64,000 nt of DNA. It comes from Melastoma dodecandrum. Its lineage: Eukaryota; Streptophyta; Magnoliopsida; Myrtales; Melastomataceae. Positions within the stretch are counted from its first letter, which is position 1, and every line of letters begins with the position of its first letter. The notes under the pieces were generated by a model that was given only the letters and a program-made list of their open reading frames with translations, was not told where the DNA came from and searched no databases. Shown in pieces: positions 14,481 through 53,354 of the stretch. The position numbers and the translations under genes were made by a program. The DNA lies in assembly GCA_029817715.1 (NCBI GenBank), contig JARUPY010000394.1, forward strand, positions 1-64,000, in the 5' to 3' direction.

Positions 14481-14487
14481 TGTGTGG

Positions 14488-16160: not shown

Positions 16161-16162
16161 GC

Positions 16163-18026: not shown

Positions 18027-18029
18027 AGA

Positions 18030-23990: not shown

Positions 23991-24007
23991 AACTAGATTA
24001 GTAATGG

Positions 24008-24776: not shown

Positions 24777-24795
24777 TTCCCCGAAAACGGTGCCA
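24777..24795 (-). other. Athila-type primer binding site (mutated)
   Basis: On the minus strand TGGCACCGTTTTCGGGGAAT resembles the canonical Athila PBS TGGCGCCGTTGCCGGGGA with a few changes. It lies about five bases from the LTR end at 24801. Confidence 0.8.
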
Positions 24796-24800
24796 AAATT

Positions 24801-26703: not shown

Positions 26704-26778
26704 CAGCAGACAAGTCATCTTGGACTGATATCACGCTCAACCTCGATAATAGCATTGACGAACAACCCTCCTTGCTCT

Positions 26779-26970: not shown

Positions 26971-27020
26971 CGTGAACAGTTTTATCTATTTTTGCTCATA
27001 TTTCACTTCGGGGAAACTTG

Positions 27021-27030
27021 GGTTATATAG
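27021..27030 (-). promoter_or_regulatory. TATA-box-like element
   Basis: Minus-strand CTCTATATAACCC lies about 50 bases before the ATG at 26970. This is the only support for transcription of the small ORF. Confidence 0.3.
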
Positions 27031-27063
27031 AGTTTTTCTCTGTTATTTTAAGATTTGTCGGGG

Positions 27064-27790: not shown

Positions 27791-27799
27791 TTGTTAGGG

Positions 27800-28941
27800 T
27801 TGGGGAGGTAGTCCACATGGACTCCTACGTCCAGGAGACAACCGACCTGGAGGATTACTCAAACTCCATGTAAGAAATTAAAAAAATAGAGAATATATAA
27901 TACATTAGTGGGTCCGTTAGGACATATTAAAATTTTTGTCTATTAAAAAAAATATCCAAAAAAATAGTTCCTCACTCAAACATATATGATTATAATTGGA
28001 AACACAAGAATATTTTTTATTATTGTGAAAATATTTATCCATCAAGAAGAGAGTTTAAAGCCTCTTATTATTTATTAATAAAGAATTTGATAATATTTTT
28101 CTTATGAAATTTTTTTTATTTATGGAAAATACCTTCTCCAACGTTTGGTAAGAGGTGGGTGGGTAGTTTGGGAAATTGTCTTTGCAGATTTGTAAATTAA
28201 GTCTGATGTGTTACTGGAGCCAGGTTATGGTATTACAAGTCGGTTTTGACTTGTATTTTTTAATGGTAGAATGTATTGGAGAACGTCTGAATAAAATCAG
28301 CTTCTGTAAAATCGTGATTACCGAAATTCACCCAAATTATGAGTTAAGGGAGACATCTCCCCAGGTACTGAATATCGCGTCCTGTCCTTTTATTTTCTAG
28401 TTGTCTTACTAACACTCGCTAGAGAGTACAATCAGGTTCCGAAACATAGAGTAAGAAACCGACCAGCTAGATATGGATTTTGATACATCTCCCTGAACAA
28501 AGCAATGAACAAATCACTCCATAAATTACGTGCTTCAGAAATCAGAAATATACAGAAGACTATCTTTGACTGCCGAAGTTCTCTAAAAGTTGATAAAGAT
28601 CCAAAATTGAACTTTTTTTTAACTTTACCCACTCTTAATGAAATGCAAAAGGTGAGCCCCCCTCCCCACCCCAAAAAAATATAATAATAAAATAGCTGAA
28701 TCTCAAAGCACAACTCAATTCTATGAGTACGGGAACACACTTAAATGGAAAAAAATGCTTAGGAGACCACAGATTGCCAGGGAGACTCAATCTCAAAGCA
28801 CAGCTCAACTAACTTTTTCTTGGATCAGCAACTTCTAGCCCAATAAAAGATTGACAGGATTCTGCCATCTGTTCCTTAATCCCATGCTTATCTGGAAGCC
28901 AGCCAACCATCACTGCATTTTGAACACCCGTTGCCTGTGTT
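27800..28941. other. AT-rich spacer and 3' flank of the methyltransferase gene
   Basis: 27890-28140 is AT-rich with no gene. About 28430-28941 is probably 3' UTR or flank of the gene to the right. It carries a near repeat of AATCTCAAAGCACAACTCAA at about 28701 and 28789, and a T8 run. I see no further coding sequence. Confidence 0.45.
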
Positions 28942-31900: not shown

Positions 31901-34900
31901 ATAAAATTCTTCTTCTCCCAGTCACCAACAGCAGAAAAACTATGAAAAAGTGCTTCACAGTAGGCTTGAAGCACAAAACTGAGAAGAAATATATAAGCGA
32001 GACTAGAACAGAGCAATTTGCATGGAGAAACAATGGAAGCAAAGTCAATGTCCATAGCCCATTAGTTCAGTGGAGGAGGACTTCACTTATTTCTTGGAAT
32101 CAAGCAAAGCAGAAATCGAATAGAATTTACTTGTGTAGAGAAAACATTGTTGATGTTGTTACCCCATCCAAGTTGGTCTGTTGCATCACGACATTCCACA
32201 GTATGTTTCAGTGCATGGCTAGAAACTTCACCAACTGTTGATCTTTGTATGTCTGCTAGAGAAGAGCTGATCTCAACTGAACTACATAAAGAGAGTGAAG
32301 TTAAAAAATAATAATAATCTGTCCAGATGTATAAGACCCTTGTTCGACACAAGTGCTTCTGTAGAACCAGTAGCTTTCAATAGGTAGGTGCTTAAAATGC
32401 AGCCCTCAGGAAAAGAAGAGAATGCAAACGTAGCGCCTACGTGTAAGTCATCGTATTATAAACTCTTTCTGGAGCATTTAACATGATGTAATCCATAATG
32501 CCCTTTGCACAAGTTCCTGATCCACCACCAATCTCAAATATCTGTAGAAAATCGTGGAAATGGAATAATGATTTCCATTTGTAGAGGAAGTAAGTTAGTA
32601 AACTTGTAAGTACCCAACAATAACTCTCATTCGAGTCGGTCAATTTCCATTAATTATACAAGAGCAATTACAAATTCCTTTCACCAAACGAATCCAACTT
32701 TTATTTGATAGATCGCCAGATATTAATATATTGCTATAGAGAACAACTAATAGTCATCTGGGGGAAGAAAAAGGCTTCCTGGCTAGTAGAAGTAGAGAAT
32801 GATGTTCTTATAGGAGCATACCCTTCCAAATATTGGCAATGAAATTATTTCTACAACTTGACACTGTAACAATGATCAGCAAAGAACCTTTGTTTGTTGT
32901 ACTAGGGCTCACCCTCATATCAATTAACTCCATGGATAGGAGACACTCATTAACAGTCAGAGATATTCCATTAGCAGTCAAACCAAATATTTTCTTAAAC
33001 TTCTCAAATTACCATTTTGCAATAAAAATCACTACAAAACAAAATCTTTCATCATGCAATAACATAATTTGTACATCAATCTAAGGACTTGACACTTCCA
33101 GCATCGAATTAAAACAGCAAGCCAGACGTAGGTAAACATATAAGCACTATACAAATAAGAAATGGAATTCCTTACTTTTAGAGGATATGAAAGGTTAGTT
33201 GTTCGCAGTATGGCTTCAGCAATACCATGGGCATACCAAGGCTACAAGAAAGAAAATTATGATCAGAGATGTCTATTTCTTTTAATAGAACAACAACAAC
33301 AATAATAAGAAGGTTAGGGATCATGAATGCTCATTCTGCTAGATAACTTCATTAATACATACAAAGCCATAAATTTGAGGCTTTATGAAGGCGAGTGTTA
33401 TTTCACTTTCCTTTTGTATACCTTGAAAAGCTCCACAGGAGTAAACCATGAGATGTCATTCTGATGATAGATGTTATCCAAGTGCTCCATGTACGCTTTC
33501 CTACCTAAATTATAATCATGTGGGGAATAATTCTATATAAGAAATCAATTCAATAACTTAAAAAGGATGCTTGAAGAGAAAACAAACAAGATGAAGGACC
33601 TCTCCAGAACAAAAATAAAATAAAATAGATACCCTTACAAATCTAGAGAGAATGCTCATAAGAAAAGTATAATACAAGAATATTCTTCCACACTTATTGA
33701 ACTGTAAAACATTTCAAAATTTTACAAAGCACAGAAACAAGCAAAAGGTGGTTTCAACTTCAGTTTGTCATTTAAGGACAAAGATGCCTCTTTTACTTTT
33801 GGTTTTTTCCAGATACAAAAGCAAGCACATGATAAGATTGCAACCAAGACTTAGCAGATTTTTCTGGTATTGTCCTAGAAAACTCAAAATCATGCATTGG
33901 GTCCCAATGTGTTTACGGATTAAATTATTAATCTGTATTAACGGCGGACAATAAGTCTAATTAGAAAAACGAAATCCAATTCCTTCCTAATTAAAGGAAA
34001 GCTCATTCCCTACGATGGAATGGAATGCCTTGTTATTCCATTCCGACCAATTCATTTGCTCGGTTATTTAAGGCAGCCAAAATAGAATGACCATTCTATT
34101 CCATTCCGTCCCTTAATCCCCATACTATAAAGACCAACAGGATACACAAGATTGCACCTTTGCAGTGTTAATGAGATCAAAGACTATAAAATTGAATAAA
34201 TTATATTAAAAGTGCCAATTTGCAAAAACACTTGATATCCTTTGTCAAAGGAGGAGGCTTCAGTACAAGTGCCAATTTCTCAAAGGCAGAAATTGATTCA
34301 TGAGAGTTTCTGCAGAAGAGTCCTCACAATAAGAATCTGTGAGCCAATCATATCGGGGAGATATTATGCTTCCATTCTTATATGATTAAGCTTGATCAAC
34401 ATTGAAAAGAAGTCCCAACACCTTGTAACCTAACCTAACTCAGAAAACAGAGAGCATCCCCCTGCCCCCAAACTCTTAATGAAAACATTCACTTACATCA
34501 GGACCGCACATATTGACTGCGAATTAAAGAATTATGAAATACCCTGGAGCCGATGGAACGGTATGCTCCTATCGAGGACACCAACAGAACCCCATCTTCG
34601 AGAGAAGTAGCCATGTTCGGAGTCATACAGAGCAGAACGTATGAAATCTCGAACCTACACGAAAAGGTGCTGACTAAATCTCCGCGGGAAGAATTCACCC
34701 AAAACATCGTCTAGCAAAACATAACAGAACAGGGATTTTTCCATATTACCAGCACTGGTCTGTCCCCTACAATGGACGATGAGGAAATTCTTCTAGTTCC
34801 CGGTAGAACCACTGCAGAAGCAACCCAAGAAGAAGAGGAGGCAAGGAAAAATGGAACCGGTTAGGAATGAGAAACAAGAGAGGAAGGAACGGGATTGAAT

Positions 34901-35018
34901 CTGAATCGACGGGTCGGGACGGAAAAGAAAGGGACAGGGAGTTGCCTTTCGCGTGGAAGGAACAGCGGCAGAGGACTACTGGGAGACGGTGGCAGCGCGG
35001 GGGAATGCGACAGAGCAT
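28942..35018 (-). CDS. NDUFAF7-like SAM-dependent methyltransferase (DUF185), mitochondrial complex I assembly factor-like
   Basis: Thirteen exons were assembled by homology and splice sites (high to low): 34811-34750, 34654-34543, 33504-33422, 33241-33176, 32541-32441, 32281-32163, 31863-31823, 31426-31338, 30844-30679, 30599-30483, 30315-30271, 29387-29259, 29076-28942 (TGA). All introns are GT...AG and all phases join without a stop, giving about 421 residues. Landmarks are VRDFIRSALYDSEHGYFS near the start, the SAM-binding IFEIGGGSGTCAKGIMDYI (exon 32541-32441), VEISSSLADIQ, DNLPHDLVY, CWLPTGCL, FFPTDFWLLERIDHF and the end EFGLPSKTRTKDGYNPLLED. Animal NDUFAF7 dimethylates a complex I subunit in mitochondria. 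This plant branch resembles Arabidopsis At3g28700, and its exact substrate is not known to me. The likely start is ATG 35018 (MLCRIPPRCHRLP, basic and transit-peptide-like). However, that frame does not join exon 34811-34750 directly, so a short intron ending at the CTGCAG before 34811, or a frameshift, must be assumed. Strong conservation and intact splicing suggest a working gene. Confidence 0.9.
29670..30005. repeat. Intronic repeat with about four diverged copies of a short motif
   Basis: Inside the intron between exons 29387-29259 and 30315-30271. Motifs ACTTACAGGCTAGGG, ACATACAGGCTGACG, TTTACAAGCTAGAGTC and ACTTACAGACTCAAG recur at 50-90 base spacing, each followed by a CC-rich GGCCCAATAA-like tail. 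At the right end GGATGGAACCTGAGACC resembles a reversed tRNA B box, so a decayed minus-strand SINE is possible but unproven. Confidence 0.4.
33979..34118. repeat. Short inverted-repeat element in intron (GGAATGGAATG type)
   Basis: GATGGAATGGAATGCC at about 34015 faces ATTCTATTCCATTCC at about 34094-34108, and a further ATTCCATTCCG lies between. The composition and ends resemble common plant MITEs built on (T)GGAATGGAAT. It lies between exons 34654-34543 and 33504-33422 and does not touch the splice sites. Confidence 0.4.
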
Positions 35019-35440
35019 CGTCTTGCGGCGGTCTTGTTTCTCCCCCTAGATCTAAAACCCCGTACCCTCGTGGGAGCCTTAAATTTTGGGTTTCTTTCCC
35101 CTTCGCACTCGGAGGTTTGTAATCATTTCAAACGACCATAGTTACTTAAATTATTTTACGAAATAAAATATTTTAAATTAAGAATTCATTCATTAATGTT
35201 AAAAAATCGATATATATTTTACAGAATTAATTGTTTTTATCAAAGAATTTACTTTAAAAAAATAGAGAATTCGATGTTTAATCCAACCCCTAGAGAAAAC
35301 TTTGTTTTGTAAATAAAAACTCGTAATTTTTAACATCGAATTATTTACATTAATTAAGAAAATATTATTTTAACACATATTTCACAAAATATTTTATATA
35401 ATAACGTTATAGACATTAAAATTTTGTCATTATAATATGG
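35019..35440. other. 5' flank of the methyltransferase gene
   Basis: 35019-35110 is the GC-richer presumed 5' UTR and proximal promoter of the minus-strand gene. 35110-35440 is AT-rich with no gene recognised. Short + strand frames at 34867-35141 are antisense to the first exon and look incidental. Confidence 0.4.
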
Positions 35441-36175
35441 GCTACCTATCAGGCATAATATCCAAGTTGTATGGATTATAAACGGTCATAAAACCAAATT
35501 CATACAAATGATGACACAAGCCCATCCAAACAAAGCTATTTTGGGCCAAACCAAGCCCGTCAAAACAAAGCTATTTTGGGCCAAACTCCATCTTACAGGT
35601 TTATCTTCGAAAGCCTCTTTTGCAAGTTTATCTCCATAGGCCCATTTGTCGGGGATATCTCCTAAAACCCCTCTAATGGGAATATCTCTAAAGGCGCCAC
35701 AGCGAGACGACGATATTCTCGCGGTGGTATATTCTCCTAGGGGCTATATTATCCTAGTAGTCATCTCTACACACAACGATAATCTTCCCGAGCGATATTC
35801 TCGAATATTATATTCTTCGACGACGACTATATCCCTCTGTCAACAACAACACCTCCCCAAGTTATGTTGGATCAAGCCTATAGGCCCCGACAATTTCATC
35901 AAGTTATCGAAGCTTTGTCAGATCACGCCCATAGGCTCCGACGACTTCACCAAGCTAACGAAGTGCTATCAGATCACACTCAAAGGCCCCGACAACTTCA
36001 ACAATATATCATCCTGAAATTCTGCCAGAGCTCAGGATCACCATCCACAACTGTTATTCTTCGAGGATCGAATCAGATGACTCATGTTTTTTTTCTCTTA
36101 CTAGAGACAAAACACGCTACATCATTCATACGATAATTAGTACGCTAATATTTTCCAACGTGATTTTAGATTTCA
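35440..36175 (+). repeat. LTR of Tat-like gypsy element (boundaries approximate)
   Basis: This lies immediately upstream of a + strand PBS. It contains a 35 bp unit repeated twice (35518-35588, core ACAAAGCTATTTTGGGCCAA) and a 51 bp unit at 35859-36002 in about 2.8 copies (core GATCACGCCCATAGGCTCCG). The right end is placed near ATTTCA at about 36174. The left end is uncertain. Confidence 0.6.
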
Positions 36176-36183
36176 CAAATTTC

Positions 36184-36201
36184 TGGTACGCTTGGTGGGA
36201 C
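36184..36201 (+). other. Primer binding site, Tat/Ogre type
   Basis: TGGTACGCTTGGTGGGAC resembles the Tat/Ogre-lineage PBS (TGG-x-ACGCCCGGTGGGAC). It precedes the gag start by about 40 bases and fixes the + orientation. Confidence 0.65.
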
Positions 36202-36240
36202 AATCTCTACCTCTCATCTCTTTACTTCGAGGAATTCACA

Positions 36241-36898
36241 TGGCGCCAAAGATGATTAACGTCAAGAATGTTGTCGCGTACAATCGACGTGTTGTTTTTC
36301 CTTCACTCTCGTCCGGGGGCTCTTCATCTGCTAAGTTTCCAAAGTTGGTCAACGCTAGGACCATGACAGAATTATATAAAGAGACTGAAGAATTGCTTAA
36401 GGCCATCTCTCCAAGCCATCCCTATCTAACAAAGATGTCGCTGAAAATAATATTCTCAAAGAAGGGGACTCTCCAAAGTAGAATTTCGCCCAGTTTATGG
36501 CCAAGACGTGCAAACATGCTGAGGAGATAGAAGAAATACTCAAGTCTATCTCTTCCAAGGCTTCCCCATCTTACAAGGATGTTCTCAATCAGGGAGGCTC
36601 TCCTAAGTCGACATATGCCCAATATGTGGCTAATACCCGTAAATATACTGAGAAAATAGAGGAAATGCTTATATCCATTTCCACTAAGTCGTCTCAACCA
36701 ACTGGTAGTGACACTCCCTTCGACAAGATTCTGGTATCTCCTATGCCGCAAAAAAATTTTGAAAATATCTCATCAAGCAACTCTCCGTCAGACTCCTCCA
36801 AAAAAGCTTATTCAACTAAAGGCTTTGAAGTCACGCTAGTGATGATGGCGGATATCCTTCACTTGAAGATCAGGTCGCGGCTCTCACAAAAACTATAG
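36241..36898 (+). pseudogene. gag N-terminal region (Tat-like)
   Basis: It starts at ATG 36241 (MAPKMINVKNVVAYNRR) soon after the PBS. A helical, Lys/Glu- and Ser-rich repeat-like stretch follows. Blocks resembling MTELYKETEELLKAIS (36360s) and AEEIEEILKSISSK (36520s) and EKIEEMLISISTKSSQ (36650s) are three diverged copies of one approximately 45-residue unit. A frameshift lies near 36480-36500. Confidence 0.6.
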
Positions 36899-37029
36899 AT
36901 GTTATGATGGTTTTCATTAAAGAAAGAGAGCAGTAAAATGGACTACATCGTCAAAAAGTTGGAGAGCAAAGATGCCGACAAAACATTTATGGAAGAAAGT
37001 TCGCGCACCCAAGATGACGAAGGATTAAT

Positions 37030-37660
37030 TTGGCAATGCATGCTTCTATTGCTGATGATCCGATTCCGGCCAAAGCAATGATGGAACTAATAAAAGAAGC
37101 AGTGAGGGGGAGCTTGAGGGCAAATAATCATCATCTTCGGCATACTGTAAGCCTTACAGTCGGAGGATCGAAGGTCACAATATACCCGTGGGACATCAGC
37201 CTCCATACTTCCAACAGTTCGATGGAAAAGGAATCCATGGCAACATATGGCTCATTTTATCGAAACTTGCAATAACGCAGGCATAGATACGGATTGGATG
37301 GTTAAACAATTAGTTCGTTCTCTGAAGGGAAATGCTTTCGACTGGTATATTGATCTCAGGTCAGGCACCATTGATAGTTGGGAACAATTAGAGAGGGAGT
37401 TTATGAATCGCTTTTACAAAACTCGTCGTGTGGTGAGCATGATCAAGCTGACAAACACTCGCCAATGGGAGGAAGAACCCGTCGTCGACTATATCCAATG
37501 ATGGAGGAATCTAAGCTTGAACTGCAAGGATCGTTTATCAGAGGAAACGTTTATCGACATGTGCATTAAAGGCAAACTCTGGAGGATTCGATATTAACTG
37601 TAAGGGCTCAAGTCACAATCATTCGAGGAGTTGGCGACAAAGGCTCACGACATGGAGTTA
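37030..37660 (+). pseudogene. gag capsid domain (Retrotrans_gag)
   Basis: The reading frame 37247-37501 gives VKQLVRSLKGNAFDWYIDLR, SWEQLEREFMNRFYKTRR and TNTRQWEEEPVVDYI, the textbook plant Tat/Ogre capsid sequence. After a TGA at 37499 it continues WRNLSLNCKDRLSEETFIDM, so one stop codon interrupts an otherwise aligned domain. Preceding codons (37030-37275) carry the expected upstream segment. Confidence 0.85.
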
Positions 37661-37868
37661 AGCTTTGTTGGAACCAACATGAGTACATCCCAATACCCGA
37701 GCCACATTAAAGGACGGGAAGACCAGGAAATAGAACCGGGGGCAGGCTCGCTTCTAAGGATGACAATAAACAGGTGATGACCACATATATAACTCTTGTC
37801 AAAGTGCCAATCGCAAAAGGAAAGGCCCAGGCAAATGGACAACCACCTGTAGAAGCAACCAAGATGGA

Positions 37869-38210
37869 GTGGCAATGCCCAATTATCGAAGAATGGCAAA
37901 ACAAGAAATATCCTTTCCCGATGAAGATGTTGCAAAAATATTTGACTATTTGTTGACTTCCAAGATGACTGAACTCCCACAATCAAGGCAACCACAAGAG
38001 ATAAATTTGGCTAGGAATCCAAACATCTGCAAATACCGTTGCGTCTTAGGGCGTTCTATTGAGAAGTGCTTCATGTTTAAGGAAAAGGTCATGGAGCTCA
38101 TACGTGACAACAAGATTGCTCTAAGTGCCTATATTACACCTTCGAATGTGATCACTTTTGTAGAAAATGATGCTTCTAACATCATATACGGAACTTTCGA
38201 TCCTATTTAG
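37869..38210 (+). pseudogene. gag nucleocapsid-like region
   Basis: The frame includes NICKYRCVLGRSIEKCFMFKEKVMEL, the Tat-type modified zinc knuckle (C-x2-Y/H-x6-H-x3-C is usual; here H is replaced by S). Upstream is FPDEDVAKIFDYLL. It ends at TAG 38208. Confidence 0.7.
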
Positions 38211-38479
38211 ATGATTGGGTTACCAAGTATGGGGATAATGCAACAATATATGGCCAACGTGTCAAGTTGTGTGGTTAGCTCCGAAGAAGCATCTACCAAA
38301 GAAGGTTGGACTTTGGTGACTTACAAAAGGAACCGGAAGAAATCTTCTAAGCCCATTAAGAAAACGCTTTCTATGCGAGCAAAGATTACAATGAGGCCTC
38401 CAATAAAAATAGATTCTAGGAAGATGGCAAAAGAAGAGGGTTCGCAAGATAACCCGACCTTGAAGAAGCCACATTAGCT

Positions 38480-38870
38480 ATGTTATGGGATTTCTTTCCG
38501 GAACGTTTTCAAAAACTTGTAGATTTATATACAAGTTGTCATCCCATTGATGCTGACATGGAAAGGGCTGTTATAACGGTCGACACCCCAGAGAACTCCA
38601 CAGTGATGAACATCGAGATGATGGCGCAACAATTACATTTTCCAATGAAGATCTTCTTATAGGTCAGAAATCTCTCAATCAGCCGTTATTTATATTAGGC
38701 TATGCTTATGGGACGAAGGTTAATCGCATCTTGATCCACCCGGGTTCGCCAGTCAATATCTTGTTATTGAAATCCCTAAAAGAGATTGAGCTAGGAGTTA
38801 ACGACTTATCAAGTAGCCGCCTAATAATACAAGGATTCAATCAGGGGGGAGAGCGAGCTGTTGGGAAGTC
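38480..38870 (+). pseudogene. Aspartic protease remnant with lost active-site Asp
   Basis: After FPERFQKLVDLY the reading shifts frame to a TKVNRILIHPGSPVNI block near 38715-38760. In Tat elements this block is VNRILVDGGSAVNI, with D of D-G/S-G catalytic. Here DG has become HP, so the enzyme is dead. Homology ends in IIQGFNQGGERAVG at about 38865. Confidence 0.75.
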
Positions 38871-40846
38871 GGAGACTTAGCCAAAATCAACCCCTGGACA
38901 AGCAGGATTGTCAGTCAAATGCATGATTGCCAGTCAAATGCATGTTCGAAGGCAATCCGGTCCCTTTCCGAAGATATCAACAACTCTCATCGGATTGCCA
39001 CATTTCAAAGAAATTCGGTAATTCTAAATATAACAGATTACCGATAAACAGCAACTATTTCGCATAAAAAACACATAGAATCTGCAAATTAAAAGCAACA
39101 TCACACAAAATCTCACAAAATCTTATCAAATCTTTCCAAATCCTTTAACCAAATACTTGGACAATCAATGACTTGACTTTGGATTTGACAGGTTGCTGCG
39201 AATTTTTCGTATCGTATAATTTTTTTGCTTAACTTTACAAAAAAAATTTAACAAAATTACGTATCGAACGATTTTTCTGAATCTAAATGCGAAATATAAA
39301 TGAACAAAATTCTACCTGCAAAAAAGTCGTATTTTTTTTTTGCAACGCTAAATAGGTCATATATCCATAATTATTGCATCCAGTTCTCGATAAATATTAT
39401 GGAGAACAGAGCAATTTTTTCGTTTATATTATATTTCCTCTATAAACTGAAATAAATGCCTAAATATACATATTTGTTGTTGTTTCTGTTATCCGAGAAA
39501 TTATCTACGAAATATTTATTATTGAAAAGTTCGGATTTTGGAGCAAAATATTCATAAAAGCAAAACAAATATTTAGTTATACGAAAAATTTTAAAGCAAA
39601 CAACTTGCACCCAATTAAAATTGTATATTTTACGAATTTTATGTTTAAAAATGCGAAAAAATTGTTCCTTTGAAAAATACAAAATAATCGTGTTTTCCAA
39701 AAAAACTCTTTGTTTGTTCGAAACATTTGCAAATTGCTGACACCAAAAAACGTGTAGAAAGAATTCGTGAAGATGAATGAAATATTAATATTTACGAAAT
39801 ATTATTTGATGGACTAATACGTTGTAGTTAAACGACTTAATTGTCTACTTGAATGAAATTCTATATAGCAGAAAATGTGAACATAAATTAGAAATTCATA
39901 AAGTAGGGCATGTTTTTAGCATTACACAAAAAGATAAAAAGGATTCCTCTAATAAGAAAATAGGACTACGAAATTTTTGTAGCACGTGTGTAACATTTAA
40001 TTTATATAGATGTAGCATATCTTATAGTTACAAAGTAATTATAGATATTCACAAACCATTACTTTATAAGTACGCAAAAATATGGATAGGCTTTCTGTAT
40101 TTATTTGCAAAATTTTTGGTTTGTACAAAATTATTGACAAACAGTGAACGCATAAAAACTTCATGTTGAAATTGTTGGATCGTTCAGGAACACTAAGAGG
40201 GGGGGTGAATTAGTGTTTATAACTTTTTCGCCCTTTCTCAGTGTCAGCGGAAGCGTACTGTATCACAGCAGAACGTTTCTCAGAATGAGAACTGCTTTGC
40301 TGTAACCGTTACGACTTAATCGTTGGATTCTCGTACTAGTGTTTACGCGATCGTAAGGGACACAGTAGTTTATAGTGGTTCGGCCTTAATCGACCTACGT
40401 CCACTTTCCACCGTAGAGGTGATTCCACTATTTGAAAATAATGGATGCAAATAGCCCTTGCACTAGGCGTAAGTTTTTCTCACAAAGTGAGATTTAGAAT
40501 CCCGTACAACAGATGATCACTCCTGGCAACGGTCAGCTCCTCACACAGTGGACGTCTGCTCGTGTCCAGCAGAATGATGCTCACGCTCAGCAGTTGATTG
40601 CTCAAAGGATTCGCACACAGCTCGTTGTCGCTTAATATAAACCTGACTATCAAAGCAGAGAGACAACGTTGTGTTAGTATATAAATCCTCACAGGTAATT
40701 CCTTACAGTGGAGAATGGCTTCTCAGAGAGCAGCCCGTTTCTGCTTCACAGCGAAGGAATGCTTCGGCACTTGTTTGCTCAGAAGAGGATTTCCACAAAG
40801 ATTTCGTCCCTTCTCCGGATGATCCTGTCTATAAGCGCAAGAGAGA

Positions 40847-40938
40847 CAACCACAAAGTTGATCAAATAGATCACCACAAAGATCACGAAGAGAAAAACCA
40901 CAAAGACCACAAAGAGAACCACAAAGACCACTTAGAAG
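40847..40938 (+). repeat. 9 bp microsatellite-like array, CACAAAGAY units
   Basis: Units ACCACAAAG and ATCACGAAG/GAC-type variants recur about eight times. In the + frame 40671-41015 they encode alternating H, K, D, N, E residues, but that frame is probably fortuitous within LTR-like DNA. Confidence 0.7.
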
Positions 40939-41472
40939 GTATCCGTCCTACACTCAGTTCGGACGTGCACGGTTACCACAGCCGTGACTCACTGCACTGC
41001 ACACCCAGTGCCTAGGGTGGAATTTTCCGATCCGTTGGCTTCCACGCAACCTGCTTTACTAACCCTCTGTATCAGGCGTTCAAGACTTCTGCACAGCACC
41101 CCTGTGCTCGGGAGGACCTCTTTCCACTCCGGCGGCGTTCCCAACTCCTGCTCTACCCTGCAGGCACGAGACTTCTGGCGCGCACCCGCAAGTGCGTGTC
41201 TAACTGCTCAAACTCCGTAGGCTCGAGACTTCCCTGCGAAAAGACACGACAAGAACGGCTTCTTGCCGATGGGTCAGCAACCGGTTACTGCAATCAGCAC
41301 AGGTATTCACTTAGCTTCCCTCATACGATTCGCCGGCTGCTCGTTGAACGCACCGAGGACACCTAGTCCCTCTCACGACGATCAAGGAATCTGAACTCAG
41401 CCCCTTGACACCCTCGCACGCAGTTTGCGAGCAATAAGAACCAGGAGACACTTAGCACCTTCCGCTCTCCGT

Positions 41473-41518
41473 CGACCACTTAGACCACTCAGACCACTCA
41501 GCCACTCAGCCCACTTAG
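41473..41518 (+). repeat. 9 bp array, ACCACTYAG units
   Basis: About five tandem copies of ACCACTTAG/ACCACTCAG with small deletions, in the same LTR-like block as the CACAAAGAY array. Confidence 0.75.
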
Positions 41519-42469
41519 AAATCGTTCAAAAACGTTGTAGGATTATCTGAGGGTCGTCTGGTATAAAAAGAAACGAAACAAATAATCGATTTCCCAAAAA
41601 TGAATAATTTGTTTCCTAAAATCAGAATACAGGAAGCTGTAATCGTGGATCAGCAACAGGATGCTCAACGGTCATAATGACCAAGAAGGGAAGGAAATCT
41701 TTGATGATATTCCTTGCACGTATAATCTTATCAGATTAAATGATTATCAGAATCAGATATTTAATCATTAAATATAATTAGACTGCAATAAGCAAATCTG
41801 GAATAATAATTATTCTTTCATCAGCGCAATAACGCAGAATAGTTTTGCTGTAATGCAGCAAGGTCTTTCTTAAGTGTAACGACACATTGCTTAGGTTACA
41901 GCGTAACATTGCTGCAGGATAACATTGCTGCAGGATATCCAAGAAATATTTTGTTTCCAAAATTAAACTTGGAAAGCTAATCTCGTAATATTTAGATGCC
42001 TAAATATTATAAATGAGATCAATGAGCCATATTAAATGAACGTGGACACTCAGATAAATATTCTGAATTAGTCCGAAATAAATCATGGATATTAAAGAAT
42101 ATGTTTCCATATTTTTAATATTTATGCGCAATATCACAGTACCGCTTAACTGTAACGCAGCAATCTGTAACTGTTACTTGCTGTGGTCCAGCAACACAGT
42201 TCTCAAGCTCATCACTAAGAATAAGCGAAGTGTTTCAGCAATTATCTTCTCAAGCTCATCATCAAAACCAAGACTAACAGAAATTGACCATTTTTTTACG
42301 AATTATTCGTTCTGCTTTACGAAAAAATTGTGCGAAGATGTTGGATATAGTATTCATACTGTACGATTTCCCTGTTGATGAACTATTGATTAAATATTCC
42401 GTATAATACGACTTTTTTGTTTAGCTTTACGAAATTTCTGTCCCACAAAAAAAAAAGTGAACCCAGGGG

Positions 42470-43247
42470 ACTCCCACCCACAGGACGTAAAAAGCTCCCA
42501 TGCGTCGCACACGCTTTCAAACATCTTAGCGAAGTCAAGAGTGTCAGAATAGGGGTTTCGTACAAACTTTGCTTTAGTCTCTCGAAACTGGTTGAGGCAG
42601 CTACAGTCCACTCAAACTTGTCTCCCATCCGTGAGTGTGGCTATGATCGAACTAAATCTACGAATGAATCTTTTGTAGTACGAAGATAAGTTATGAAAAC
42701 TTCAAACATCGTGAAAGCTCTTGGGTGTAGGCCAATTCTTGATCATAAAGGTTGTCGTTCGACCGGTAGCTGCTTCGGGAATACATCCTTGAACTCAATT
42801 AGGGTCTTTGCTCGAGGATGCTTGGTCGATTGAACCTAGGCTGCTTCGACTAGAACCAATAGGTTGGCTCCTCACTCTCGTGCATCGCTCGAATTAAACA
42901 TGATGTTGACTCTGTGGCGCGTCGATGGGTGGTGTGATCAAGGGCATTAAGGTGATTTTCCCCTCGTCGACGGTGATTGAATACGCATTATGAACACGTC
43001 GTGCTGAGCTTGTTGATCAAACTGTGATGGAATCATATCACAAATGACTTCATCCTTCTAACTTTTTCCGATCGAAAATAAAACTCGCGCTCACTGTTTT
43101 ACTTGAGCATCGCTATCTTTGGTAAGCGATTGAAGTCGATAGGGGTTAGGTTGGCATTCGACGGCCAGCTTGAGCTTCTCAACCATTATCTTTGAGACTA
43201 CATTGGTGCAGCTTCCACTGTCAACAATTACACGACAGACTTTTGTA
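42470..43247 (-). pseudogene. Chromovirus-like gypsy fragment (protease, RT/RNase H junction)
   Basis: This is the same family as 14221-18771. On the minus strand KVCRVIVDSGSC (protease active site, about 43210-43240) is followed leftward by spacer matching 16300-16450. It then jumps to GDKFEWTVAASTSFERLKQSLYE (42560-42625), the start of RNase H, so most of the RT has been deleted. The protease frame breaks off at 43247, where an Athila-like LTR begins, showing that Athila inserted into this older copy. Confidence 0.75.
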
Positions 43248-44439
43248 TGCTGAAACGCACACGCAAGTATACGGGTCGCACAAGTAAAAAAATAATGAGT
43301 AAAAGTCATTCACACGGAGATTGTTCAGAATATTTTATCGATTATCAACTTAACAAGTCTCAATCTAGCCATTAGAGTTTTAATTGGTAAAAGATTTAAT
43401 GTAAGAATGAAAATAGCAACTAAACAAAAACAAGTATAGAATAAATCAATGGATGAAAAACCCAGGACTATGAATCCCCTATCGTTCGTGAACTATCTGC
43501 ACTCTCTCTTCCTCAATTCCCTCGGTTTCACGTTTACTAACCACAATTCTTATAGTTCGTTAGACCTTTCTCGAGTTTGTAACGGTGAATTATAAATTAT
43601 CCGTAAACCTATATCTCTAGTGATGTACGAATAACTATAACCCTTTAAGTGCCAATTGTCGTCTTGGTTACCTACGAGCTTATATCTCTGTACTCCTCTG
43701 AGTTAACCTCATCTGTCAGGCTTAACCTAAGTTATATTCTCCCTCTTCTAACCCTAAGTCCCTCTCTCGAGTCTACTAAAGGATAAGAAATCAAACAAAT
43801 CGGCGATTAACCCAATATGCAAGCATATAGCACAAGAGAACATAACCAACCGTGAAACTTCACGAATTGATTCCGAAAAGAGTTTACACAATCACTACAC
43901 GAGTCGGTTCATCACCGTCCTAGATAAAAGATTTAGCTTTGCATACTAGCCAATAAGCAAAGCAAGAAAAGTAAAGAAAAGAAAATCTTCATCGTCTTTT
44001 CCAATCTCTCTTCTTTACCCGTCGCCTCGTAGCCTCTGTACCTGTCTCAATTCTCACGATTTAAACCCTTTTATAGATAGGGTAAATCTTCCCAAAGCAC
44101 CCAAGATTTTAGGAAATATATAAAAAGATATCTCGCCTCGTGTGGCCATACGACATCTTCGTGTAGCCACACGAGCCTTTCTGTCCACCAGCTTCCCCCT
44201 CGGCAACTCTACCATATACCTTCTTGTCGCTCCTCCTTCAAGATGTCTTCCTCGATATGGATTTCGCGTCGTATCGACCTCTTTTCCTGCAAAGAACCTC
44301 ACAAGCCCAAAAATACCCAAACAAAGCGACTAAACCGAAAATAATAGGCAACTAACCCTACATTCAAATAAATGTCAGATGTCTAATACTCATTTGGCTC
44401 GTAAATGAGATATATAACTCTAATATCATATAGTTAACA
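43248..44439 (-). repeat. 3' LTR (1192 bp) of the Athila-like element
   Basis: Minus-strand ends are TGTTAACTA at 44439 and TTTCAGCA at 43248. It contains the plant Athila R-U5 signature ACGCAAGTATACGGGTCGC (43258-43276 on the + strand), and an internal hairpin pair around GTGTGGCCATACGAC / TCGTGTAGCCACACGAG at about 44140-44175. It is immediately preceded by a polypurine tract. Confidence 0.85.
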
Positions 44440-44452
44440 CACCCCCAAACCT
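44440..44452 (-). other. Polypurine tract
   Basis: Minus-strand AGGTTTGGGGGTG directly adjoins the TG of the 3' LTR, the expected position of the plus-strand primer for reverse transcription. Confidence 0.8.
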
Positions 44453-45531
44453 ATTTTTTGCTAGTCCCGAGCCAAACAGAAAGAAAATAATGCACCTAAA
44501 ACACTCTAATGAAAACTTAATCATAGTATTCGGTGTCATCAACCAAGCGTTTTATTCTCAGATAGTAGCTACTCCACCAGTGAAGTCAGATTCCTGTCCA
44601 TACCCAACTCCTGTTTCGACAACCACATCTTCCTATCCTCCACCATCTTTTCATAAAAACATTTTCAACAACCACATTTTCAGCTTAAAACAAGTCCACC
44701 ACTCAAAGAAAATATTTCAGAGAGATGATTTGCAGAAACCCCAACACGTCGATCTGCTTGCTCCAGGTATCACAACATACCACAAATTTCTCAACTTTTT
44801 TTTTCTCTTGCTCGACTCTAAATGTCTTATCGGTAATAATGGAGACTCGTCTAACGAGCTTTCGACCAATGACTCCCGAACTAGTCGGTCCAAGGCATTA
44901 TGTGATAAAGCACCCCTCGAATCTAATAACTCAAGCCACCACTAGACATTTTATTGATTTTTCATACTTTCTTTCTTCTTCTTTTTTTCGCCTGAACATT
45001 GGTACTCAGAGCCTTGGAAAGATGTTTTGTTTTGTTTTTTTTCACCTACAAGTTCACTTCACAAGGTTGTCTAGGTGGCTCTACTCCTCCCTAACGTCCA
45101 TGTACTCTAAGAGATCTGAACTCGTTTCAGCCATAAAAATAATTTCTCCCCTAGTTTTGGATAGGAACACAATATCACTTCACACAAGCCATAGTTCAGA
45201 CTCTCATCCTCCCACAACTAGAAGCATAACTGATTAATCACATCATTGAACACAATTATACGAACTCCGACTCCCTAGATTGAAAATGCAAATCTAATCT
45301 CATGCAATCCACTAATCTAACCTAAAAACAATGCAAATGCAAATGCAAATCCCCCAAACCTAGATGAAGAATCGTCCCGATGATAAAAGAAATAAGAAAA
45401 ATAAAAGAAACAAAATGAAAAAGGGAAACGCCACGCGCCTTATTTATCATCTTCTGATTCCTCATTCATGTCGTCCTCATTGTTGGATGGGGTATGTGCA
45501 AAAGGGTCTTCAAGATCGGTAATGTCCACAT
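44453..45531 (-). other. Athila-like 3' untranslated region
   Basis: Non-coding spacer between ORF2 and the PPT. The + strand frames at 44490-45237 are shadows. The same sequence, diverged, recurs at about 62900-63170 (block GGTACTC-x-GAGCCTTGG and the tract before it), which identifies the latter as another Athila-like 3' region. Confidence 0.6.
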
Positions 45532-46509
45532 TTAAAGCTGTCGTAAACTGTCGATTGCACTCGACTTGATAACGCATGAATTTTTCCATTTGATGCCATT
45601 GATAGGCGAATTCGGTGCTTCTTGTAGACGAAGACGCAAAACCAGAAGGGTTAGAGATATTTGTTGTGCAGGTCGAGACGACATATTACCTTCATCGTCA
45701 TCATGTTTATGATCAAAATCTTGCAACATCTTGTGCATGGTGGCACCATTAAGTGGCTTTGGAGGATGGCACAACTCTTCCTTGGTATCCCAACTCATAC
45801 CCGCTCGTCTGCATAATTCAAAACTTATAGCGGGGAACCACATCCCGAGCTTGGGATCCTGCAAAGCTTTTGTTAGCATGCGATAAATCAGCGCTCCTAT
45901 GTCAATATGTTTACCTTCCATGATGCAAAATATCAACACAGCCCTTTCCTTGGTGATATGCATCGTGTTCGTTCCAAGAATAAGCCTACTAGATATTGTA
46001 ACCACATGCGAGCCTCGGGATACAAATCACTATTTCTAAGGGCCAAGGGCTTATTCTCTTCTCCAAGTCGAGCCGTTGGCTGTGATACATTCTAGTACAT
46101 CAGCTGAGTTAAAATCTTCCTCCGAGGCTGCTCTAAAATCATCACGTTCGATCCTTGGAAGCTTATTGAGCTCGGCTATTGCAGCAGCACTAAAGCAAAC
46201 CAATTTTCCTCTCACAAAAATAACATCTAGTGGGTATCTGGCATTACCAGCATTGGCATAAAATTCACGCACAATTGGCACTACAATCGAACCCGGTGAC
46301 GCGACCAACTTCTCCCAATGAAATTTTGCAATTAAATTCCTAAACTCGTACATACCCGAATGATTAGCATCAAGGCCTCGTTCCGGGACAATCGTCCGAC
46401 TTATCAAGGCTTGACGGTACCCTTCCTCCACTTCCTCCGACAAACTTCATCTCACCCTAGCCCTAGTGGTGGATTCCTCGATGGATTTCGACTTCTTTTT
46501 AGGTGCCAT
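45532..46509 (-). pseudogene. Athila ORF2 (env-position, putative plant transposon protein)
   Basis: The ATG at 46509 opens [20 protein letters not shown]. After a TGA near 46450 it continues SLSEEVEEGYRQALISR, ERGLD, WEKLVASPGSIVVPIVREFY and VFVRGKLVCFSAAAIAELN. A second frame (46005-45532) gives ITKERAVLIFCIMEGKHIDIG and FPAISFELCRRAGM. This is the plant-transposon protein domain found in Athila between integrase and the 3' LTR. Its function is unknown, and it is often called env-like by position only. At least one in-frame stop and one frameshift interrupt it. Confidence 0.85.
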
Positions 46510-46558
46510 GAGCAACCCAAATCACACAAGCACACAAGAACAAAAAGAAAACCCGAAT

Positions 46559-46797
46559 AGTCATGAAGCATGCGACCGAGGGGTGCGCCAGGACCTGCTC
46601 CCGCGGGCTCCACTGCACGACCTTCCCCTTATTGCCAGCCTTCTCGAGGAACCCCTCCGGAAGGGTCAGGACTGTGTAGCCAGAGTCCTTGTGCGGCGGC
46701 TTCATCACCCAGATGAAGTTCACCCCGGAATTCAGCAGCCCAAAAGCGATCTCATCCCACTGGTCCTGCTTCAAGTACACGACACTACCAAATGAGA
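46559..46797 (-). pseudogene. Captured host UDP-glycosyltransferase fragment (UGT84-like)
   Basis: The frame reads [60 protein letters not shown] and [16 protein letters not shown]. This is the family-1 plant glycosyltransferase region running from the FGS block into the PSPG box ([16 protein letters not shown]). It stops before the HCGWNS sugar-donor residues. The wording is closest to UGT84 (cinnamate/gallate glucose ester formers). About 80 codons are open without a stop. The frame then runs into retroelement leader sequence and terminates at the TAA overlapping the ORF2 start. It has the same orientation as the element. It cannot be active because the N-terminal acceptor domain and the rest of PSPG are absent. 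Confidence 0.9.
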
Positions 46798-47025
46798 CGT
46801 CCCACCACTCCTAGTAAATGGAATCGGGTGGGCTCTTCTTTCGCAATCTGCAGGCATGGGTGGGCTCTTCTGCAACCGGCCGACGTGGATGGGCGTGTGG
46901 GACTTCTTCCTTTTCCCTTGGGCAAGAGCAAGGCAAAAGTAAAGATGCAAACAGTAGATGAAAGAAAGAAAAGATTCGATCTTGCTTTTTATTATTTTCT
47001 AAATTATTATTTTTAAGCAAAATCG

Positions 47026-47200
47026 TGCTGCCACACAAAAGTGTCTTGTGGCCGCACAGAACCGTCTGTGGTGGGGGGTTGTCACTCGTGCGGCCATATA
47101 AAAATGTCTTGTGGCCGCACAAGACATTCTATGGTGGGAGCAACAGTTCGTGCGGCCACACAAAAGTGTCTTGTGGCCGAACAAAACATTATGTCCACCG
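47026..47200. repeat. 62-63 bp tandem repeats, each with a 10 bp hairpin
   Basis: Units begin at 47026, 47089 and 47151 (partial). Each opens with TGCGGCCACACAAAAGTGTC then TTGTGGCCGCA, so TGCGGCCACA and its complement flank an 11-base loop. They lie between integrase and the captured fragment. Related but diverged hairpins occur in the LTR at 44140. Confidence 0.85.
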
Positions 47201-47400
47201 CTTATTACTTACATAAAAAAATAATAATAATAAAATAAAATAAATTAAAAAAATGCATAAATTAAACTGAAACGAAGTATTGGGTTGCCTCCCAATAAAC
47301 GCTTGATTTAACATCGTCGGCTTGACGCTTGACTTCGGTTAGGCGTCTTCCATCATTAGTGTCACCGGGTCCCGGTAAAAAATACCACCTAAGTAGGGCT

Positions 47401-48599
47401 TCACTCGAGAACTCCGTAAGGTAATACCTGGATGATCTTGAATGGTCCGGACCAACGGGATTTAAGTTTTCTTGGAAAGAACTTAAGACGTGAATTAAAT
47501 AAAAGGACGAGCTGACCTGCCAAAAATTTGTGATCGACGATCATGCCACACTTTGGTTTTCTCTTTATAGATTCGGGCATTCTCATAAGCTTCTGAACGA
47601 AATTCTTTCATTTCATTTAGTTGCGTAAGCCTATGTTCTGCTACCGCAATTGGATCCATGTTGAGCTTTTGAATTACCCAATACGCTTTATGCTCTTGTT
47701 CCACTAGCAGATGACATGCTTTTCCGAAGACCAACTTGTATGGCGATGTTCCAGTTGGGGTCTTTAATGCTGTCCGATATGCCCACAGAGCATCATCCAA
47801 TTTGATCAACCAATCTTTCCTGTTAGTGCCCACCGTTTTTTCAGGATCCTCTTTATTTCTCTATTTGACACTTCCACTTGGCCACATGTCTGTGGATGGT
47901 ACAGTAATACGATCTTGTGCTTGACTCCATACTTTCTCATGAGTGTAGTGAATTTTCCATTGCAAAAATGTGCTCCGCCGTCACTAATAATGGCCCTTGG
48001 TTCTCCAAAACGTGTGAAAATCTATTTGAGAAACTTTAATACTGCAGAGCATCATTAGTTGGCAATGCAACCGCTTCAACCCATTTAGATACTAAAATGT
48101 ATATATTCTTAAAAGAGTCAACAAAGGGACCCATGAAGTCTATTCCCCACACATCAAAGATTTTCACTTCTAATATGTTTTGTAAAGGCATCTCATCACG
48201 ACGAGAAATGTTTCCCACACGTTGGCAACGATCACAATGGGCAACAAAATTATGTGCATCTTTAAAGAGGCTGGGCCAAAAGAAACCTGACTGAAGAACT
48301 TTTGCTGCAGTTTTGTGACAGCCGAAGTGTCCACCATATGGAGCTGCATGGCACTGCTCAAGAATCGGCATTATTTCCTCTTCAGGAACACATCTCCGAA
48401 TGACCTGATCTGCACATTTCTTGAAAAGAAGAAGTTCATCCCATGTATAAAACTTAACTTCATATACAAACCTCTTGCGTTGTTGACTTGTGATGTCCGA
48501 AGGAAGAACGTTCGCTACGATGTAGTTTACATAGTCCGCGTACCACGGTGCGGCTGCGTCAACAGTGAGTAGTTTGTTCATCCGAAAAAGAGTCATCAA
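47401..48599 (-). pseudogene. Athila integrase (frameshifted)
   Basis: The frame 48599-48036 carries the zinc-binding HHCC region: HAAPYGGHFGCHKTAAKVLQ then HCDRCQRVGNIS. It continues with WGIDFMGPF (first catalytic D) and SKWVEAVALPTNDA. A shift follows, then ISDGGAHFC (second D) and a [17 protein letters not shown] block (catalytic E) across 47880-48000. The frame 47833-47495 gives [20 protein letters not shown], and 47586-47401 gives SRWSGPFKIIQVLPYGVLE at the C-terminus. All catalytic residues are recognisable, but the frame is broken twice. Confidence 0.9.
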
Positions 48600-49304
48600 T
48601 CATTGTTGAATGTACAGTCACATTTCCCTCTTTCAATCTTGACAAGTGATCTGCCACCTGGTTCTCATTCCCTTTTCTGTCCACAATAGTTAGGTCGAAC
48701 TCTTGCAACAATAACACCCAACGAATTAATCTTGGTTTTGCGTCGGCTTTAGAAATTAAGTATTGTATAGCTACATGGTCAGTATGAACAACAACTACAG
48801 ATCCAATTAGATACGATCTAAACTTGTCAAAAGCAAACACAATTGCTAACATTTCTTTCTCTATTGTGGTGTAATTAACCTACGCTGAATCAAGTGTCTT
48901 GCTAGCTTAGTAGATTGAATGAAAATGCTTATCCTTTTCTTCCCTAAGACAGCTCCTACGATTGTGTCACTAGCATCACACATAAGTTCAAACGGGAGAG
49001 TCCAATCAGGAGCTATGATGATTGGGGCGGAGACTAACCTTCCTTTCAACTCAAGAAATGCTTTCATACACTTACTGTTAAACACAAAAGGTGAATCTTT
49101 CCCCAAGAGGTAACATAAGGGTCTGGTAATCTTGGAGAAATCTTTTATGAATCGCCTATAGAATCCAGCATGGCCCAAGAAGCTTCGTACACCCTTTACC
49201 GATGTTGGAGGTGGTAGTTTCTCGATTGTCTCCACTTTAGCCTTGTCAACTTCAATACCGCTATCAGAAATCCTTTGGCCAAGAACAATACCTTCTCGCA
49301 CCAT
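48559..49304 (-). pseudogene. Athila RT connection and RNase H
   Basis: The frame 49304-48861 gives GVRSFLGHAGFYRRFIKDFS, ELMCDASDTIVGAVLGKK (catalytic D), and [14 protein letters not shown]. The next frame, 48852-48559, gives [37 protein letters not shown] and [11 protein letters not shown]. Together they form a complete RNase H split by one small frameshift around 48855. Confidence 0.9.
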
Positions 49305-49319
49305 GAAATGACATTTTTC

Positions 49320-50425
49320 TCAATTTAAAATCAAATTTGTCTCTTCACAACGATTTAGGACAGCCTCAAGGTTATGTAAACGGTTTTCAAAAGTTAATCC
49401 GAATACAGAAAAATCATCCTTAAATGCCTTAATGGTCTTCTCAATTATGTCAGAGAAGATTATTGTCATGCACCGCTGAAAAGTGGCAGGTGTGTTACAA
49501 AAACCAAATGCCATTCGACGAAAAGCAAACGTACTGTAATGACAAGTGAATGTAGTCTTTTCCTGATCCTCTGGTGCAATTGCTATCTGGTTATAACCAG
49601 AATAACCATCAAGAAAACAATAATAACTTTTACCTGCAAGTCGATCCAACATCTGATCAAGGGAAGTAGGAAGTGGTCCTTGCATGTGGCTGCATTGAGT
49701 TTCCAATAGTCCATGCATACTCTCCAGCCCGTGGCTGTCCTTGTTGGGGGGAGTTCGTTTTTGCTATTTTCAACAACCGTCATGCCTCCTTTCTTCGGCA
49801 TACATTGTACTGGACTCACCCAAGAACTATCAGAAATCGGATAAATAATACCTGCATCAAGCCACTTAATAACTTCTTTTCTGACCACTTCCTTCATGTG
49901 CGGGTTTAGTCTTCGTTGTTGTTCAACTGTGGGCTTTTTGTCATTGTCCAACACGATCTTATGCATGCAAAGTGTTGGACTAATCCCCTTAATGTCCACG
50001 ACTGTCCATCCAATGGTCGTCTTATGCTCTCGAAGCACTTGTAACAACATCTCCTCCTGCTTGTTAGTCAATAATGATGATATGATAACTGGAAGAGCGT
50101 TTTTCTTACCCAAGCAAGAATATCTCAAATGCTCGGGCAACGGTTTTAGTTCTAAATTCGGAGGTTCTTCAATGGATGGCTTTGCTGTCGATGAAGGACG
50201 ATCAAGAAGTTCCATGGATGGCTTTGCTGTCGATGAAGGACGATCAAGAGGTTCCACCCTTTGGAATTGACGTATATATGCTACATCGCCTTTCCCAATT
50301 ACTTCGTCATGTGGTGCATTTTCATGCGGCTTTTCTTCCTCTAACTCCGACTCACAAGATTCTAGGAACGTCTCATAAGCGACTTCTTCAATTATGTCCA
50401 CTGACTTTCCCCTTCTGGACATCAA
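49320..50425 (-). pseudogene. Athila reverse transcriptase (frameshifted)
   Basis: The 280-codon frame 50425-49583 contains the linker, two copies of LDRPSSTAKPS from a duplicated unit (50165-50260), then MKEVVRKEVIKWLDAGIIYP, WVSPVQCMPKKGGMTV and WRVCMDYWKLNAAT. The frame 49718-49320 continues FLDGYSGYNQIAIAPEDQEK, FAFRRMAFGFCNTPATFQ and the active-site block AFKDDFSVFG (usually FMDDFSVFG). The catalytic DD is kept. One frameshift near 49640-49700 separates fingers from palm. Confidence 0.9.
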
Positions 50426-51576: not shown

Positions 51577-52356
51577 TCACCTCCTCTGATTCTTGCATTT
51601 CCATAACCTGCAAATTAGTACGAACATTATTAGATGTCTGAGATGAGGGCGTAATGCAGCCATTTCTTTTGTAAGAGTTTCCAATTGAGCATTGTGAGCG
51701 GTTATGGCATCAAGTTGATGATATCTTCCTCCTCTTGCTGGTGTTCTTCTCTGGCCATTAGTTGCCATTGCTTTGAACAATTCCAAAGCATCTTCTGGAG
51801 TTTTGTTCATTATTGTACCCCCAGCAACGGTGTCAATTGTCGATTTATGTTGCTCCGCTAATTCATCATAGAAGCTTTGAACCAACATCCACTTAGGTAT
51901 GTCGTGGTGGAGACATAAACTTTGTAACTCCTTGAATCTGTCCCATGCTTCATACATAGATTCATTGGGTAGTTGGCGAATTGAGGTGATATCATTCCTT
52001 ATTTTTACGGTCCTGCTCAGTGAGTAGTACTTGGACAAGAAATACTTTCTGAGATCTTCCCACGAGTTGACTGATTCACCGGGCAGCGAATATAACCACG
52101 ATCTGGCTTTATCCCGAAGTGCAAATGGAAATAGCCTCAACTTGATTGCTTCTGCCGATACTCCATTGTAGCTGAAAGTTCCACATAAATCTTCAAAACA
52201 TGTTAGATGCCAATGTGGATCCTCATTTATCAAACCACTAAAATTAGAATTTTCAATCTTGTGAATAATAAATGGCTTAATCTCAAATGTGTCTACTTGT
52301 ATTTCTGGACGTAGGAATCCTGCATGATTTTGTGGGTTGGTTGCGCATAATCCCAC
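51577..52356 (-). pseudogene. Athila gag capsid region
   Basis: The 259-codon frame from ATG 52356 has FEIKPFIIHKIENSNFSGLI, NEDPHWHLTCFEDLCGTF, IKLRLFPFALRDKARSWLYS, SWEDLRKYFLSKYYSLSRT and ESMYEAWDRFKELQSLCLHH, a complete plant gag capsid. The start is the family's usual one, following the PBS by about 230 bases. The frame is lost after about 51600, just before the PGWQSHPNFSW block seen at 51500-51530. Confidence 0.85.
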
Positions 52357-52589
52357 ATCGTCCTTCTTTGTTGCGGATCCTCAACATTTAGAAGATTATT
52401 TACGTTCGCCATTAATTTCTTTTGACTTCTTCTCAATATCCGAAAAGTTCGCTCAATCTCAGGGTCAAAAAGTAGCTCGTTTTCACTTCAACAGTGTCAC
52501 ATACACTTGCGAAATGTAAACGAAAATTAGTGACTAAATTTAAGAACTTGATAAATGTAAAAATATAACAAAATAAATTTTGGCAACAT

Positions 52590-52606
52590 CCCCGGCAACA
52601 GCGCCA
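52590..52606 (-). other. Athila primer binding site
   Basis: Minus-strand TGGCGCTGTTGCCGGGG differs from the canonical Athila PBS (TGGCGCCGTTGCCGGGG) at one base. It lies directly against the truncated LTR. Confidence 0.9.
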
Positions 52607-52607
52607 C

Positions 52608-53354
52608 TATCTGTACTCTCTCTTCCTCAATTCCCTCGATTTCATGTTTACTAACCAAAATGCTTATAGTTTGTTAGACCCCACTCGAGTTTGTAACGGT
52701 GAATTATAAATTATCTGTAAACCTATATCTCTATATTGATGTACGAACAACTATAACCCTTTAAGTGTCAATTGTCATCTTGGTTACCTACGAGCGTATA
52801 TCTCTATACTTCTCTGAGTTAACCTGATCTCTCAGGCTTAACCTAGGTTATATTCTCCCTCTTTTAAGCTTAAGTCCCTCTCTCGAGTCCATTAAAAGAT
52901 AAGAAATCAAACAAATCGGCGATCAACCCAATATGCAAGCATTAAGCACAAAAGAACATAAGCAAACGTGAAACTTCACGAATTGATTCCGAAAAGAGTT
53001 TACACAATCATTACACGAGTCGGTTCATCACCGTCCTAGATAAAAGATTTAGTTTCGCATACTAGCCAACAAGCAAAGCAAGAAAAGTAAAGAAAAGAAA
53101 ATCTTCATCGTCTTCTCCAATCTCTCTTCTTTAGCCGTCGCCTCGTAGCCTCTCCAGCTGTCTCAATTCTCACAATTTAAACCCTTTTATAGCTAGGGTA
53201 AATCTTCCTAAAGCACCCAAGATTTTAGGAAATATATAAAAAGATATCTCGCCTCGTGTGGCCACACGACTCTATCCACAAGCTTCCCCCTCGGCAACTC
53301 TACCACATACCTTCTTGTCGCTCCTCCTTCAAGATGTCTTTCTCGGCATGGATT
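52608..53354 (-). repeat. 5' LTR of the Athila-like element, truncated at both ends
   Basis: It matches 43496-44260 of the 3' LTR almost base for base in long blocks, from CTGTACTCTCTCTTCCTCAA to TCAAGATGTCTTTCTCGG. About 245 bases next to the PBS and about 180 bases at the outer end are missing relative to the 3' LTR. The outer break is at about 53354, where CACTA-like sequence begins. Confidence 0.85.

Follow-up and report, generated by a model that had tools for sequence, protein, structure and literature searches.

A UGT84A-type gene piece inside an Athila-like retrotransposon of Melastoma dodecandrum, very probably a repair patch acquired after insertion

When a piece of a host gene lies inside a retrotransposon, did the element bring it along, or did it arrive once the element was in place? 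The question is raised by the window (the whole stretch of 64,000 nucleotides analysed here), in which a piece of a plant UDP-glycosyltransferase (UGT) gene at 46560-46800 sits between two LTR stretches (43492-44263 and 52606-53354). A first-pass annotation had read the piece as a recent capture by the retrotransposon.

The UGT piece and the surrounding element

The piece, a patch of 241 bp on the minus strand, encodes about 80 residues of a plant UGT. It has two mismatches to a UGT84A-type gene on another contig (C233:5232497-5232737) and corresponds, by alignment to that gene, to residues about 277-357 of 503. It ends inside a region that we take to be the PSPG box. The limits were fixed by the donor alignment together with a native copy of the element on contig C280; the first-pass annotation had located the piece, with borders (46559-46797) that these comparisons correct. 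The minus-strand frame at 46499-46810 matches Pfam UDPGT (PF00201) with E 1.5e-5 and 24.5 bits, against a cut-off of 19.5 bits, and its best match among solved plant glycosyltransferases is 8inh (E 2.8e-33, residues 5-84). Lack of UGT homology would have counted against a UGT84-like fragment; homology was found to both the Pfam domain and the solved chains, and with the UGT84A-type donor it bears out that identification.

The UGT frame contains no internal stop. A stop lies immediately upstream of it, the first Met that it contains is internal to the enzyme, and the donor gene's start is missing; the first few residues and the last ones derive from element sequence. The frame closes with a TAA whose first base is the ninth nucleotide of ORF2, read in a different frame, and this TAA does not overlap the ORF2 ATG as had been proposed. 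Patch and element are both on the minus strand, so that the piece is in the sense of the element, with pol frames on one side and the PF20167 ORF2 on the other. Sense orientation, the position between integrase and ORF2, and the lack of an in-frame stop had all been read correctly in the first-pass annotation.

From high to low coordinate, the element encodes gag, RT, RNase H, integrase zinc-binding and ORF2 domains, all on the minus strand. The gag open frame (51577-52380) matches Retrotrans_gag (PF03732), and the RT, RNase H and integrase zinc-binding domains (RVT_1, RT_RNaseH and Integrase_H2C2) are spread across several frames at 48036-49763. For the two integrase-side frames scanned, Pfam reported the zinc-binding domain only and no integrase core domain. 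ORF2 (45532-46509), annotated as a 'putative plant transposon protein' (PF20167), is interrupted by a stop after 20 codons and by another frame break; its first frame scores 53.8 bits, above the cut-off of 45 bits, and its second 37.7 bits, below it. An extra ORF after pol is characteristic of the Athila lineage of Ty3/gypsy elements. The extra ORF and the gag-RT-RNase H-integrase order point to an Athila-like element; a search with the gag protein gave 23 matches, none of which carries a lineage name.

Repeat comparison placed the alignable part of the 3' LTR at 43492-44263, the LTR appearing to reach about 43243, and the 5' LTR at 52606-53354, without about 250 bp beside the primer binding site. 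Those ~250 bp, absent at 52606/52607, are present in the 3' LTR of the window (43243-43491) and in the C280 copy. Adjoining the 5' LTR is a primer-binding-site-like stretch on the same strand (52590-52606, coordinates counted by hand), presumably of the Athila-type form. Three tandem units of ~62 bp, 79-83% identical to the first, occupy 47023-47200 and have matches in other copies of the family.

The donor gene and copies without the patch

A whole-genome search with 46550-46800, the check that the first-pass annotation had proposed for finding the donor, scored six of six candidates and located the UGT piece at six places: the window, C233 at 99%, and four others at 86-90%. The patch and the C233 gene differ at 46564 and 46602 (2 differences in 241 bp, 99.2% identity), a closeness that upholds the earlier claim of recency. 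The four paralogue places differ from the patch at 25, 26, 27 and 26 (plus gaps) sites and were rejected as donors on that count. On C233 the donor is intact, with an open frame of 503 codons from the first Met and no introns. Identity to the donor gene is 86.5% over about 1400 bp for three paralogues (C439, C182 and C267) and 80.7% for the fourth (C159). The five UGT loci, compared as 3.2-kb pieces with the window outside the 241 bp, have no sequence in common with it at E 1e-5.

Among the best 120 of 2125 protein matches, the donor's four closest relatives are from Melastoma candidum (88%), Punica (86%), Syzygium (87%) and Corymbia (87%). The Melastoma candidum protein is named only 'hypothetical protein', that of Punica is gallate 1-beta-glucosyltransferase-like, and that of Syzygium is gallate 1-beta-glucosyltransferase 84A24. 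We assign the donor to the UGT84A type, with a predicted gallate glucosyltransferase-like enzyme class. Within the same best 120 of 2125 matches it resembles the UGT84A gallate 1-beta-glucosyltransferases of Myrtales at 86-88% identity; the patch, unlike these enzymes, retains only about 80 residues, and a whole enzyme could not be made from it.

The intronless donor leaves room for an RNA source. Because no intron marks the donor, a DNA and an RNA template are indistinguishable, and the gap could have been filled after insertion by cDNA of a UGT mRNA instead of genomic DNA, with the many retroelement copies in the genome as a possible source of reverse transcriptase. The patch contains no poly(A) and no transcript end, and the evidence does not point to RNA rather than DNA; we regard cDNA filler as unlikely.

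Other copies of the element are numerous. A search with 46800-47300 gave at least 61 matches (best 40 of 86 candidates scored), and one with the left flank gave at least 40 places, the window included (best 40 of 50 candidates scored). We compared 29 other copies, including C280. The left flank extends to 46558/46559 in 22 of them, and 12 of these 22 also resume at 46801/46802, the other 10 having no right-hand match there; in seven of the 29 the left flank does not extend to the site. In all 12 copies with both flanks (C280 and 11 further), the native spacer aligns throughout. The GC-rich stretch 46801-46918, considered as a second filler piece, was rejected, as it is native element sequence that resumes at 46801/46802 in 12 of the 29 copies. 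None of the 29 matches the patch at E 1. The search of other Athila copies for the fragment that the first-pass annotation had called for thus came back empty, and the five other UGT places hold no further copy of the element. Within search sensitivity, none of the other 39 left-flank places is on a contig with any of the five other UGT-piece places, and the six places with the UGT piece include no second element copy. Taken together, the spacer in C280 and in the other copies and the absence of the patch elsewhere show the native spacer to be the ancestral state; the UGT piece took its place later and, as far as these searches are sensitive, occurs in the window copy alone.

Over window 45153-46559 the C280 copy matches at 98.1% identity, and the match picks up again at 46801 (93.3% over 46801-47231). 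Exactly between the two junctions it has 90 bp of native spacer. C280:11001-44490 is colinear with window 25340-52607, flanking DNA outside the element included, apart from one insertion in C280 and one stretch found only in the window. Because the colinearity takes in DNA outside the element, sequence comparison identifies the two as the same insertion event, present either as another haplotype or as a segmental duplicate. If C280 is the other haplotype, as it may be, the patch would be heterozygous. Along C280, identity to the window is 98.5% (11001-15000), 98.0% (15001-24999), 91.5% (25001-25715), 96.4% (25709-30000) and 97.9% (39108-44490); the drop to 91.5% covers 765 columns and adjoins the window-only stretch. 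Substitutions number 133 in 10704 sites (window 29346-40174) and 75 in 4246 (window 42280-46559). The ORF2 stop after 20 codons is common to both copies; ORF2 had therefore been broken by the time they separated, and hence before the patch.

The two copies also differ structurally. Window 40175-42279 (about 2.1 kb), outside the 3' side of the element, is absent from C280. C280:30508-39108 is an 8.6-kb insertion found only in C280, at the position of window 47226 and not far from where the patch lies; within it is a 1.2-kb direct repeat (94%), the first copy of which begins close to the insertion's low end. At the 5' LTR the two copies cease to be colinear. There, in C280:44495-46481, the element's 5'-end LTR runs on into 3'-internal sequence of another Athila-like copy, an arrangement as after LTR-LTR recombination or in a tandem array. 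In the distal part of C280, one 1-kb and one 2-kb piece were searched and gave repeat families only. Three contigs (C321, C298 and C280) carry the flanking segment at window 33000-35000.

Junctions, timing and the route of arrival

In the comparison of window, C280 and donor, the left junction (native element to UGT, 46559/46560) and the right junction (UGT to native element, 46800/46801) each have 0 bp of microhomology. Between them the 90 bp of spacer present in C280 are missing, so that 241 bp replace 90. A scripted check found no exact target-site duplication (TSD) of 3-10 bp at the patch, and no inverted repeats were seen by eye at its ends.

Pack-MULEs, Helitrons and similar DNA elements commonly carry gene pieces, and one of them bearing a UGT piece might have inserted into the Athila-like element. 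The insert, however, is donor sequence from end to end, 90 bp of target were lost, and neither terminal inverted repeats with a TSD nor Helitron termini were found (ends judged by eye). We give this route next to no credence.

Two clean junctions 241 bp apart, with the element colinear on both sides, and the two substitutions relative to the donor also speak against an assembly artefact in which a UGT read fragment was mis-joined into the contig. Parts of the assembly are noisy, as contig C298 illustrates with many small indels relative to the window. C298:363017-399966 overlaps window 1-38401 (ends sampled: window 1-1621 and 32487-38401) and stops before the element. Aligned to the window, its right end shows 20 mismatches with 41 gap openings over 5969 columns; at the other sampled end the two are 87% identical, with 83 gap openings over 1624 columns. 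C298 may end where the assembly graph breaks off near a heterozygous stretch. Overall, we consider a mis-join very unlikely.

The timing of arrival can be compared with the age of the element. The LTR pair differs by 51 substitutions at 747 sites (K2P 0.072), compared with 2 in 241 for patch and donor (Fisher p 5.8e-5). If only the patch's own branch mutates, the conditional binomial p is 0.016 and the Poisson estimate 0.008; by itself, the stricter one-branch test (p 0.016) is only moderate. With a substitution rate of 1.3e-8 per site per year, uncalibrated for this plant, the age of the element is about 2.8 million years.

Capture during retrotransposition, by co-packaging of UGT mRNA and template switching before insertion, would account for a fragment between LTRs in sense orientation, and an intronless donor makes an RNA source compatible with the absence of introns. 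Abnormal template switching is among the LTR-element routes described in a 2026 review of gene capture by plant transposable elements (PMC13317346). A piece captured in this way should be in every descendant of the insertion, but C280, the same insertion, keeps the 90 bp of native spacer, and the two LTRs have drifted much further apart than patch and donor have. The piece is also in no other element copy examined, although capture would not require more than one copy without re-transposition. Capture is therefore highly improbable. The first-pass reading holds for the UGT84-type host origin, sense orientation, recency and absence of a stop, and fails, given the C280 spacer, the other copies and the LTRs, in attributing the capture to the retrotransposon.

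Very probably, the piece is an ectopic filler patch from double-strand break repair, pasted in after the element had inserted. This reading is favoured because the loss of 90 bp, the copied ectopic piece and the blunt joins all fit it. A donor copy persists elsewhere (the 503-codon frame on C233), target sequence was lost relative to unpatched copies (90 bp; 12 copies aligned), and the junctions are of the end-joining kind, without TSD or terminal repeats. In the proposed sequence of events, an Athila-like element already resident and with a broken ORF2 would have suffered a break or gap in the spacer between integrase and ORF2, presumably beginning with a double-strand break, and 90 bases of spacer would have been lost. 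The gap would then have been filled by a 241-bp copy of the UGT84A-type gene from another contig, with the donor left intact. Both ends would have been joined bluntly, perhaps by template copying or by capture of a fragment with end joining; blunt junctions are not diagnostic of any one repair pathway. Regain of the native spacer in C280, by conversion from a patched ancestor, would contradict the patch reading.

Precedents, function and meaning

Related repair products have been described in plants. Filler DNA with NHEJ is reported for maize p1/p2 (PMC2686159), the model of Wicker et al. 2010, as cited in PMC3503983, has breaks repaired with foreign gene-bearing fragments, and Vaughn and Bennetzen 2014, as referenced in PMC6097286, addresses patch-mediated repair in rice. 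The maize case and the Wicker et al. model resemble the present patch in target loss, a copied insert, a retained donor and end-joining-like junctions. The maize p2/p1 filler is 50 bp from two nearby sites, whereas here 241 bp came from another contig and lie inside a retroelement. Likeness to LTR-retrotransposon gene capture is confined to the host gene piece between LTRs, which a between-LTR survey could count as captured; in contrast to capture, the piece here postdates insertion and is in one copy only. In the main text of PMC13317346 the term 'double-strand break' has 0 occurrences, and a test of whether a piece arrived before or after insertion was not seen in that review as far as its text was available. 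Among the matches listed for literature on Athila gene capture, LTR capture and templated or patch repair, as far as those sources were accessible, this case was not recognised.

Most likely, the patch has no function. A protein role of the UGT frame does not seem likely from its sequence, and the suggested role as an upstream frame is weak: the gene start is missing and the early stop in ORF2 is the same in both copies. Exact matches to the donor comprise 195 of 221 21-mers and 189 of 218 24-mers, compared with 20-33 21-mers and 14-27 24-mers for the four paralogue loci. Because so many of these words match the donor exactly, the donor gene would in principle be within reach of small RNAs derived from the patch. 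A recent heterozygous patch in a silenced retroelement might, via 24-nt or 21-nt small RNAs, lower donor UGT84A expression and gallotannin synthesis in carriers; we hold out only a slim chance of this. If true, break-repair patches would be a source of new trans-silencing alleles.

With its donor, an unpatched copy and exact borders, this is a clean case showing that a gene piece within an LTR retrotransposon is not necessarily one that the element captured. Pieces of this kind could be miscounted in surveys where every gene between LTRs is scored as a capture. A patch of this age could serve, too, for dating repair events and for estimating how frequently ectopic genes act as templates in plants.
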